Source: Armatimonadota bacterium
GTDB taxonomy: Bacteria > Sysuimicrobiota > Sysuimicrobiia > Sysuimicrobiales > Sysuimicrobiaceae
NCBI GenBank assembly: GCA_031432545.1
Contig: JAVKGX010000001.1
Location: 434,001 to 498,000 of the forward strand
Direction: 5' to 3'
DNA: 64,000 bases
Shown: piece by piece, positions 33,588 through 63,987 of the stretch
How positions within the stretch are numbered: position 1 is the first letter of the stretch
How the letters are laid out: each line of letters opens with the position of its first letter
Made by a program: the position numbers and the translations under genes
Notes under the pieces: generated by a model
Told to the model about the DNA's origin: nothing
Seen by the model: only the letters and a program-made list of their open reading frames with translations
The model's database searches: none

Positions 33588-33616
33588 TTGACACGCGGTG
33601 GGGCAGATGCTACGTT
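33588..33616 (+). promoter_or_regulatory. Strong sigma70-type promoter of the thrBC operon
   Basis: Perfect -35 TTGACA (33588-33593), an exact 17-bp spacer, and -10 TACGTT (33611-33616). Predicted transcription start near 33623, shortly before the SAM-I aptamer begins. Confidence 0.85.
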
Positions 33617-33639
33617 CGGTGTCAACAATCGAATAGCGA

Positions 33640-33749
33640 CCTTATCCAGAGTGGGCGAGGGACGGGCCCGACGACCCCCGGCAACCTGCGGCGCCGCGCT
33701 GGCGCGGCAAGGTGCCAACTCCCGCGGAACGCAATTCCGAGAGATAAGG
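33640..33749 (+). ncRNA. SAM-I (S-box) riboswitch aptamer
   Basis: Closing stem P1 is CCTTATC (33640-33646) with GATAAGG (33743-33749). Between them, in order, are the conserved S-box elements: AGAG, GAGGGA, GGCCC, the CCCCCGGCAACC segment of P2, a long GC-rich P3, then AAGGTGCCAACTCC and a GGAA/TTCC P4 hairpin before GAGAGAT. S-box aptamers bind S-adenosylmethionine and turn off downstream genes. Here it precedes homoserine kinase and threonine synthase. Confidence 0.93.
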
Positions 33750-33758
33750 GCGAGGTGG

Positions 33759-33791
33759 AGCCCTCCGAGGAATTGGGGGGCTTTTGTTTTG
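33759..33791 (+). terminator. Intrinsic terminator of the SAM-I riboswitch
   Basis: Stem AGCCCTCC (33759-33766) with GGGGGGCT (33775-33782), containing one G-U pair, an 8-nt loop and the U-rich tail TTTTGTTTT. It lies between the aptamer and the thrB start at 33823, as expected for a transcriptional off-switch. Confidence 0.85.
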
Positions 33792-33822
33792 GGTATGCGC
33801 GACGCGGGTTGGAGGACGGCGG

Positions 33823-34761
33823 GTGAACGACTTCGTGCGCGTGCGGGTTCCTGCGACGGTGGCCAACCTCGGGCCTGGGTTCGACGCCGTAGGTCTAGCG
33901 CTTCGCCTGTACAACACCGTCGAGGTGTCGGCCGCCGACCGTGCGGAGGTCATCGTCATGGGCGAGGGTTCCGAGCAGCTGCCCACCGACGCCACGAACC
34001 TGGTCTACGCGGCCGCGCAGGAGGTCGCGCGCCGGGCCGGACGCCCGGACGTTCGATTCGCCCTGCGGTGCCGCAACGGCATCCCGCTGAGGCGCGGCCT
34101 GGGCAGCAGCGCCGCCGCCCGGATCGCGGGGATCGTGGGCGCCAACCGCCTGCTGGGCGGGCCGCTGGACGTACGCGGGATCGCACAGCTCGCGTGCGAC
34201 CTGGAGGGGCACCCGGACAACGTCATGGCGGCGATCACGGGCGGGCTGGCGGTCGTCGCGCGACGGGCCGAGGGGCTGCGGTGGATCCGGCTGATCCCGG
34301 CCGCGCTCCCCGGGGTGGTCGTCGCGGTCCCCGATCTGCCGGTCGACACGGCACACGCGCGCGCTTGCCTGCCGTCCGCGGTGGCCCTGCCGGACGCGGT
34401 GTTCAACGTGTCCCGCGCCGCGCTGCTCGTCGCCGCGCTGTCGGCTGGGAGGTGGGATCTGCTGGACGTCGCGATGGAGGACCGCATCCACCAGCCGTAT
34501 CGCGCGCATCTCATCCCCGGTCTGGACGAGGTGCTGGAGGCGGCGCGCCAGGCCGGCGCGTTCGGTGCTGCGCTCAGCGGCGCCGGGTCCGCGGTCATCG
34601 GGTTGGCACCGCAGAGCGCAATACGTGCGGTCGGTGACGCGATGGTCGACGTCTTCGTCCGCCACGGGGTGGCGGCCCGCGCCGTCTTCACCGAGATCGA
34701 CCTGGGCGGCACGGCGGTGGAAGCCGACGGCGTCTACCGACCGCTGATCTCCGAAGCTTGA
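33823..34761 (+). CDS. thrB: Homoserine kinase
   Basis: A 312-residue GHMP kinase converting homoserine to O-phosphohomoserine. N-terminal VRVPATVANLGPGFDAVGLAL is the homoserine-kinase signature. The ATP loop is RGLGSSAA (about residues 89-96) and the C-terminal motif is GAALSGAGSAVIGL. GTG 33823 follows GGAGG; earlier in-frame starts lie inside the terminator tail. The gene is controlled by the SAM-I riboswitch just upstream and is followed by thrC after 21 bp. Confidence 0.93.
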   Translation: MNDFVRVRVPATVANLGPGFDAVGLALRLYNTVEVSAADRAEVIVMGEGSEQLPTDATNLVYAAAQEVARRAGRPDVRFALRCRNGIPLRRGLGSSAAARIAGIVGANRLLGGPLDVRGIAQLACDLEGHPDNVMAAITGGLAVVARRAEGLRWIRLIPAALPGVVVAVPDLPVDTAHARACLPSAVALPDAVFNVSRAALLVAALSAGRWDLLDVAMEDRIHQPYRAHLIPGLDEVLEAARQAGAFGAALSGAGSAVIGLAPQSAIRAVGDAMVDVFVRHGVAARAVFTEIDLGGTAVEADGVYRPLISEA

Positions 34762-34782
34762 TCTTTCACCTGGAGGTAGCCG

Positions 34783-36009
34783 ATGGGGAGCGTCACGCAC
34801 CTGCGATGTCGAGCGTGCGGCGCGGGGTACGAAGTGGGTCCGGACTACGTCTGCTCGGAGTGTTTCGGGCCACTGGAGGTCGCCTACGACCCCAGCCGGG
34901 TGGCGCGCGAGGCCACGCGAGAGCGGATTGTGTCGGGCCCTCCGACCCTGTGGCGCTACCGTGCGCTGCTGCCCGCCGAGCCGCCCGACGACGACATCCG
35001 TGTGGGCTTCACGCCGCTGCTGCCGGCGCGCCGGCTCGGGGAACGTCTGGGGTTGCGGGGCCTGTTCATCAAGAACGACACCATCAACCCGACCTGGTCG
35101 TTCAAAGACCGCGTCGTCGCGCTCGCGGTGGCCGCCGCACGCCGTTTCGGTTTCGGCGTCCTGGCCTGCGCGTCCACGGGCAACCTGGCCAACGCCGTGG
35201 CCGCGCACGCGGCGCGGGCCGGTCTGCGTGCCGTGGTCTTCGTTCCGCAGGGATTGGAGGCGGGCAAGGTGGCGGCCAGCGCGGCGTACGGCGCGACGAT
35301 CGTCGAGGTGGAGGGGACCTACGACGACGTCAACCGCCTGTGCACCGAGATCGCGGGAGAGCATCCGTGGGCGTTCGCCAACGTCAACGTCCGCCCGTTC
35401 TACTCCGAGGGGTGCAAGACGCTGGCGTTCGAGGTGGTCGAGCAACTGGGTTGGCGCCTGCCGGATCACGTCGTCGTCCCCGTGGCCTCCGGCAACCTGC
35501 TGGTGAAGACGGAGAAGGCATTCGGCGAGTGGATCCGCCTTGGCCTCGTCGAGGGGGCGATGCCGCACCTGCATGGTGCCCAGGCGGCCGGGTGCGCGCC
35601 GGTGGCGACGGCGTTTCGCCAGGGCGCAGAACACGTCCGGCCCGTGCGGCCCAACACGATCGCGAAGTCGCTGGCGATCGGCAATCCCGCCGACGGGGCA
35701 TACGCCCTGCAGGCCGTTCGCCGCACCGGGGGCGTCGTCGAGTCGGTCACCGACGAGGAGATCGTAGGAGGCATCCGGCTGCTCGCCGAGACGGAGGGGA
35801 TCTTCGCCGAGACGGCGGGCGGGGTGACCGTGGCCGTTGTGAAGAGGCTCGCGGAGTCCGGGGTGTTCGCGCCGGACGACACAGTGGTCGCATTCGTCAC
35901 CGGAGGCGGGCTGAAGACGGTGGACGCGGTCGCCTCGGGGTTGCCGCCGACAATCCGCGTCCGCGCGTCGCTACGCGAGTTCGAACGGCAGGTGCTGGCG
36001 GCCGTCTGA
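34783..36009 (+). CDS. thrC: Threonine synthase
   Basis: A 408-residue PLP enzyme of fold type II acting on O-phosphohomoserine. An N-terminal zinc ribbon (Cys9, Cys12, Cys24, Cys27) precedes the catalytic domain. The PLP lysine is in TWSFKDR (Lys108), the phosphate-binding loop is STGNLANA, and a VTGGGLKT turn occurs near the end. The start follows GGAGGT. Residue patterns fit threonine synthase, but related enzymes can use phosphohomoserine for homocysteine formation, which matters given the SAM control. Confidence 0.88.
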   Translation: MGSVTHLRCRACGAGYEVGPDYVCSECFGPLEVAYDPSRVAREATRERIVSGPPTLWRYRALLPAEPPDDDIRVGFTPLLPARRLGERLGLRGLFIKNDTINPTWSFKDRVVALAVAAARRFGFGVLACASTGNLANAVAAHAARAGLRAVVFVPQGLEAGKVAASAAYGATIVEVEGTYDDVNRLCTEIAGEHPWAFANVNVRPFYSEGCKTLAFEVVEQLGWRLPDHVVVPVASGNLLVKTEKAFGEWIRLGLVEGAMPHLHGAQAAGCAPVATAFRQGAEHVRPVRPNTIAKSLAIGNPADGAYALQAVRRTGGVVESVTDEEIVGGIRLLAETEGIFAETAGGVTVAVVKRLAESGVFAPDDTVVAFVTGGGLKTVDAVASGLPPTIRVRASLREFERQVLAAV

Positions 36010-37541: not shown

Positions 37542-37572
37542 GCTCTCGTTGTCGGTGGGAGCTTGCTTTTTT
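37542..37572 (+). terminator. Intrinsic terminator before crcB
   Basis: Stem GCTCTC (37542-37547) with GGGAGC (37557-37562), followed by a run of six T (37567-37572). The CTCC used by the pseudoknot lies immediately upstream and could compete with the terminator stem for GGGAG, consistent with an on-switch. Confidence 0.75.
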
Positions 37573-37599
37573 GGGGGGACCTATCGCCCGGAGGTCTGC

Positions 37600-37971
37600 A
37601 TGCGCATCGTGCTGGTAGTCGTGGGGGGAGCGATCGGTGCGCTGCTCCGCTACGCGGTCGAGGGCTGGTTTGCCGGGCGGACGGGGATCTCCTTCCCCTA
37701 CGGCACCCTCGTCGTGAACGTGACGGGGAGCTTCGCTTTGGGTCTGCTGTCCGTCTTCACCATCGAGCGGCTGCTTTTGAGTCCCGAAGCGCGCCTGTTC
37801 GTGGGGGTGGGTCTGCTTGGGGCCTACACAACCTTCTCCACCTGGCAGTACGAGAGTTGGCGTCTGATCGAATCGGGGAGTTGGCCGCTGGCGGTCGTGA
37901 ACCTGGGAGGAAGCTTGGTGTTGGGCTTTGCGGCCCTGGTTGTGGGGGTCCTGATCGGCCGTGCCCTCTAG
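37600..37971 (+). CDS. crcB: Fluoride exporter CrcB/Fluc
   Basis: A 123-residue, four-helix membrane protein forming dual-topology fluoride channels. Typical blocks: GGAIGALLRYAVEGW (residues 8-22), FPYGTLVVNVTGSFALGLL, and GLLGAYTTFSTWQYE with the pore phenylalanine/threonine track. ATG 37600 follows CGGAGGT; an in-frame start 51 nt upstream lies in the terminator and is rejected. Its TAG stop shares the palindrome CTAG with the stop of the convergent DUF190 gene. Confidence 0.93.
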   Translation: MRIVLVVVGGAIGALLRYAVEGWFAGRTGISFPYGTLVVNVTGSFALGLLSVFTIERLLLSPEARLFVGVGLLGAYTTFSTWQYESWRLIESGSWPLAVVNLGGSLVLGFAALVVGVLIGRAL

Positions 37972-63913: not shown

Positions 63914-63987
63914 TGGGGGGTCGTCCAGCGGTAGGACACCGGACTTTGGATCCGGGAACCCAGGTTCGAATCCTGGCCCCCCAGCCA
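63914..63987 (+). tRNA. tRNA-Gln (UUG anticodon)
   Basis: A complete cloverleaf: acceptor TGGGGGG/CCCCCCA, D stem GTCC/GGAC, anticodon stem CCGGA/TCCGG with loop CTTTGGA (anticodon TTG), T arm CCAGG-TTCGAAT-CCTGG, discriminator G and an encoded CCA. It is 74 nt long, preceded by TACAAT. Confidence 0.96.

Follow-up and report, generated by a model that had tools for sequence, protein, structure and literature searches.

The window (the whole 64,000-nucleotide stretch of DNA analysed) contains a SAM-I (S-box) riboswitch followed, on the forward strand, by thrB and a gene annotated as threonine synthase. The aptamer matches Rfam family RF00162 at 33639–33750 (+) across model positions 1–108, scoring 76.0 bits (E 4.6e-16) where the gathering threshold is 44.4 bits, and this full-length match bears out the aptamer placed at 33640–33749 by an earlier note on this DNA. 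It is the single RF00162 copy found in a search of the whole genome (2.19 Mb, rated 100% complete). A sigma-70-type promoter, TTGACA-17-TACGTT, was read directly at 33588–33616 (+), where the earlier note had seen it; the window holds a single TTGACA-N16..18-TANNNT site in its 64 kb, versus a mean of 0.0 in ten simulated sequences, and a consensus promoter scanner working with a stricter rule did not list the site. The U-tailed terminator claimed ahead of thrB was likewise found, as a 12-pair stem at 33757–33784 (−19.1 kcal/mol) with a T-rich tail (33757–33790 in all, +). Next come thrB (33823–34761, +; GTG start, GGAGG ribosome site), whose product, the homoserine kinase that makes O-phosphohomoserine, scores 245.6 bits against TIGR00191 (cut-off 168.25), and the annotated threonine synthase gene (34783–36009, +), a metM-like gene for a predicted O-phosphohomoserine-dependent homocysteine synthase. 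Elsewhere in the window, a CrcB/Fluc-like fluoride channel gene was recognised by eye at 37549–37971, and a tRNA gene (RF00005, 66.8 bits) lies near the window end at 63914–63984.

Between aptamer and terminator we predict an antiterminator hairpin, AGGGC/GCCCU, at 33747–33764 (+; arms 33747–33751 and 33760–33764, −9.1 kcal/mol). It shares bases with P1 (3′ strand) on one side and with the terminator (5′ arm) on the other, making the predicted hairpins mutually exclusive; the comparison uses local hairpin energies, since folding the full leader under either constraint, antiterminator or P1, gave one and the same structure. Since the P1 3′ strand lies within the predicted antiterminator, closure of P1 by SAM should favour the terminator, and we infer from this layout the usual S-box logic of the OFF type, in which SAM binding shuts the genes. 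The opposite arrangement, an ON switch through which SAM induces threonine synthesis, would explain why SAM controls a threonine gene, and plant threonine synthase is indeed activated by SAM. None of the computed results favours it, and with an OFF-type layout and a MetM-like gene downstream we consider it extremely improbable. By folding energy alone the leader does not stand out from shuffled sequence (z −0.63), a score that is uninformative in a sequence so rich in G+C; the case for the riboswitch is carried instead by the covariance-model score and by conservation in relatives. Several of these have similar terminators 3′ of the aptamer, and in three genomes (G038–G040) the expression platform is less clean. 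In one near relative a weak match to the cobalamin riboswitch (RF00174, 34.2 bits; L029:4524–4624, −) lies a short distance upstream of the SAM riboswitch, in the opposite orientation.

The earlier note read the two genes as thrB-thrC. The gene order and thrB hold, but the second name does not, as a canonical thrC is present at another place in the genome. A scan of the genome for PALP domains revealed this second ThrC at C5:67528–68775, with hom and lysC directly behind its gene (thrC-hom-lysC). A 74-protein tree places the window protein within a 58-row clade (support 100/100) that also holds all riboswitch-linked proteins, and puts canonical ThrC, three proteins of solved structure among them, on the other side together with archaeal ThrC. 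The two sides differ at 28 near-fixed alignment columns. For example, the residues M65, T88, S155, N157 and R160 (Thermus thermophilus numbering), fixed in canonical ThrC, are absent from the window protein, which has V112, L135, N202, R204 and Y207 at those columns; T88, S155 and R160 are, we presume, phosphate-binding residues. It is almost certain that the window ThrC-like gene does not encode the threonine synthase of this genome, and metM is the best name for it. As it belongs to the MetM family, the switch most likely controls methionine synthesis.

The competing view holds that the gene encodes a true or bifunctional threonine synthase, with SAM repression of thrBC serving aspartate-family cross-regulation. 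In its favour, the product scores 274 bits against TIGR00260 (cut-off 167) and slightly below the cut-off of PRK08197. In addition, a cyanobacterial ThrC 51.6% identical to MetM is reported to act mainly as a threonine synthase/deaminase and not fully as MetM in cells (PMC12172450), so that threonine synthase activity may persist within the clade. The canonical thrC-hom-lysC cluster and the 28 columns that set the clade apart argue against this view, as does the arrangement of the locus in relatives.

Across 43 genomes of the phylum, MetM and RF00162 are each present in 37 and occur together in 33; in 29 of those 33 they share one contig and direction. The window's family and several others have the order riboswitch-thrB-metM. 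In family f5 the order is riboswitch-metM-metO, with neither thrB nor thrC in between, and two genomes (G015 and G016) have riboswitch-hom-thrB-metM-metO; in G041 the riboswitch precedes hom-thrC, followed by lysC-metM-metO. MetA is limited to the four genomes of genus g10, none of which has MetM; in these genomes metY-metA follows the same riboswitch. The riboswitch therefore appears to follow the homocysteine step whatever the enzyme, and a threonine synthase as the regulated product is, on this comparison, improbable. A convincing MetX was found in one genome of the 43. Three genomes (G003, G005 and G006) have MetM and are without RF00162; a search with Rfam revealed no other riboswitch at their MetM loci or at G004. 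Two further SAM riboswitches have other neighbours: a second copy in G016 (L162, G016:C41:7165–7271) precedes a homocysteine S-methyltransferase-like gene and two MetE-like genes, and one in G012 (L175, G012:C567:3414–3527) precedes genes for a SufS-like cysteine desulfurase and a SufU-like protein.

We also searched the window genome for other routes to homocysteine. The earlier note had named a complete metX or metA route with its own S-box as evidence that would count against its reading. The genome has no match to PF04204 (MetA), only short, weak, hydrolase-like matches to TIGR01392 (MetX) of at most 29.5 bits, no PF01837 protein (HcyBio, DUF39) and, by the RF00162 search, no second S-box. 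It does encode two full-length PF01053 enzymes, of which the one on contig C6 exceeds the cut-off of PRK07811 (cystathionine gamma-synthase) and the one on C1 is sulfhydrylase-like. Together with the absence of MetA and of a convincing MetX, these enzymes would allow a plant-like scheme. In plants, the route from O-phosphohomoserine runs through cystathionine gamma-synthase; here, one of the two enzymes would use O-phosphohomoserine fed by ThrB, and the ThrC-like gene would be incidental. Neither enzyme is under a SAM riboswitch, however, the genome's single copy being elsewhere, and the C6 enzyme adjoins a cystathionine beta-synthase, which suggests reverse transsulfuration. Moreover, family f5 and Actinobacteria have the ThrC-like gene under riboswitch control without thrB. 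We therefore regard the plant-like scheme as quite improbable. The earlier proposal that O-phosphohomoserine is the methionine precursor, as in plants, thus keeps its precursor, in agreement with genome content and comparison, and exchanges the plant route for one that most likely runs through MetM; its further suggestion that the ThrC-like enzyme could accept a sulfur nucleophile is supported on the same grounds. In substance the phosphohomoserine hypothesis appears right, with its support coming from comparison rather than biochemistry.

The combination of riboswitch and metM extends well beyond the phylum. In public genomes the riboswitch, sought with a covariance model built from nine aptamers, lies upstream of a metM-like gene in 28 of 82 sources, ranging from Actinobacteria to Deltaproteobacteria and UBP10. 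The partner of MetM is MetO, a sulfur carrier protein. Outside the window's clade, 38 of 39 bacterial loci encode a MetO-like carrier downstream of metM, the remaining locus being interrupted by a contig end, and in five Nitrospirota loci a canonical-type ThrC gene lies 3′ of metM and the carrier. The Nonomuraea homologue, 54% identical to the window protein, stands at a locus ordered riboswitch, metM-like gene, carrier (GG end), csp and groEL, and served in our comparison as a proxy for MetM of Streptomyces albulus. According to PMC12172450, which cites Hasebe et al. (2024, Appl Environ Microbiol 90:e01247-24), Streptomyces MetM is a ThrC-family homocysteine synthase that uses O-phosphohomoserine, and S. 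albulus metM has a SAM riboswitch upstream. The window resembles metM-metO in placing a ThrC-family enzyme, here predicted to convert O-phosphohomoserine to homocysteine, under a SAM riboswitch; it differs in having thrB between riboswitch and metM, an arrangement also present in relatives, in having no adjacent metO, and in that its likely carrier is a tailed protein encoded in a cysteine cluster. A second parallel is found in S. lividans, where RF00162 lies ahead of SLIV_16930-SLIV_16925, two genes filed under threonine biosynthesis (PMC8079986). These are probably metM-metO; judging from the Nonomuraea locus, the second would encode the carrier, in contrast to the window, where thrB is the companion gene.

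Comparison of neighbourhoods revealed no metO adjoining metM in the window or in its clade and family. The window locus would thus work like a metM-metO operon without being filed as one, and only a probable sulfur donor can be named for it. The sole close MetO/CysO-like carrier in the window genome is encoded at C6:23700–24023 and ends in IIPAMAGG plus ten further residues. Its neighbours encode the cystathionine gamma-synthase family enzyme and cystathionine beta-synthase mentioned above, an SbnI-like O-phosphoserine synthase, CysM and a desampylase-like JAMM protease. Three other carriers of the genome were rejected as MetO: that on C2 is a MoaD-MoaE fusion, that at 27.7 kb of C4 adjoins a TtuA-like tRNA thiolase, and that at 42.3 kb of C4 is a weak match. 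A second carrier of the family f1 relatives was also rejected, being fused to a sulfite-reductase-like protein and not near metM.

Mycobacteria make cysteine from O-phosphoserine with a sulfur carrier protein, CysM and a JAMM protease (CysO/CysM/Mec). The C6 cluster shares all four elements, but its carrier has residues after Gly-Gly and may also serve MetM. Indeed, Deltaproteobacteria have a single carrier gene between metM and cysM, at some loci also with the protease, which fits a carrier common to CysM and MetM, and we suggest that the C6 protein may serve both. Similar carriers were noted in other contexts. In four genomes (L187 in G018, L189 in G017, L203 in G003 and L186 in G015) a C6-type carrier apparently continues in frame beyond AGG into a cystathionine beta-synthase-like enzyme, as either a fusion or overlapping frames. 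In G036 and G040 (L213:4730–6658, −; L212:2596–5709, +) a Gly-Gly-ending carrier domain forms the C-terminus of a sulfite/nitrite-reductase-like protein adjoining sulfate-assimilation genes, as if sulfide were loaded directly onto the carrier.

A variant of the MetM reading, counted within it and not in addition to it, is that in the window's family the enzyme takes free sulfide instead of a carrier protein. On this view the lack of a metO next to metM, in the window as in its near relatives, would be accounted for, and the variant gains from G005, in which MetM is present and no carrier was detected. On the other hand, five of the six family f1 relatives keep, on another contig, a close MetO/CysO-like carrier that shares 72–75% identity with the C6 protein (the sixth genome is 72% complete), and in the genus without MetM the carrier is missing or barely detectable. 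We consider free sulfide rather unlikely, though well short of implausible.

Taken together, the riboswitch, the terminator, the gene order, the membership of the MetM clade, the presence of a second ThrC and the absence of MetA and HcyBio, all read from the genome sequence, very probably describe a SAM-repressed methionine operon, thrB-metM, that works with a separate ThrC and carrier-supplied sulfur. When SAM is low, the leader would fold the antiterminator and thrB-metM would be transcribed; when SAM is high, its binding would lock P1, the terminator would form and transcription would stop. ThrB would convert homoserine to O-phosphohomoserine, and MetM, a PLP enzyme of the threonine synthase fold, is predicted to replace the phosphate with sulfur to give homocysteine. 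Threonine would come from the canonical ThrC encoded on C5, drawing on the same ThrB-made O-phosphohomoserine. The sulfur probably comes from the thiocarboxylate of a ubiquitin-like carrier protein, for which the C6 protein is the candidate, and the ten residues after its Gly-Gly would need trimming. From these genomic arrangements we infer what MetM catalyses, which protein is the carrier and that this carrier takes part in both cysteine and homocysteine synthesis. More tentatively, and with slightly less than even confidence, we postulate a single logic for the lineage, in which O-phosphoserine and O-phosphohomoserine are paired with one tailed, protease-trimmed carrier, CysM and MetM act as acceptors, and the riboswitch gates the branch at ThrB. 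Gating at that point would mean that SAM also limits the supply of threonine.

Protein thiocarboxylates have a precedent in homocysteine synthesis. Krishnamoorthy and Begley, in a 2011 study cited in PMC5764234, reportedly described the HcyS/MetY system of Wolinella, in which homocysteine sulfur is said to come from a protein thiocarboxylate and MetY to act on acyl-homoserine. The window genome probably shares this sulfur source, but its enzyme has the ThrC fold and O-phosphohomoserine as the predicted substrate. The MetM pathway itself has been known since 2024; as far as could be checked, the novelty here lies in the lineage, in thrB being part of the operon and in the adjacent carrier having been lost.

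On the basis of regulation, neighbourhood and gene replacement, a widely misannotated threonine synthase family would supply the homocysteine-forming step of an entire phylum and of parts of several further phyla, and the gap that automated annotation leaves in the methionine pathway would be filled. The exchange of metM for metY-metA behind the same riboswitch provides a clean natural experiment. The finding may also bear on Acidimicrobium, which was listed in 2018 without a known homocysteine route (PMC5764234): two Acidimicrobiaceae loci (L036 and L039) have the order riboswitch-metM-carrier.
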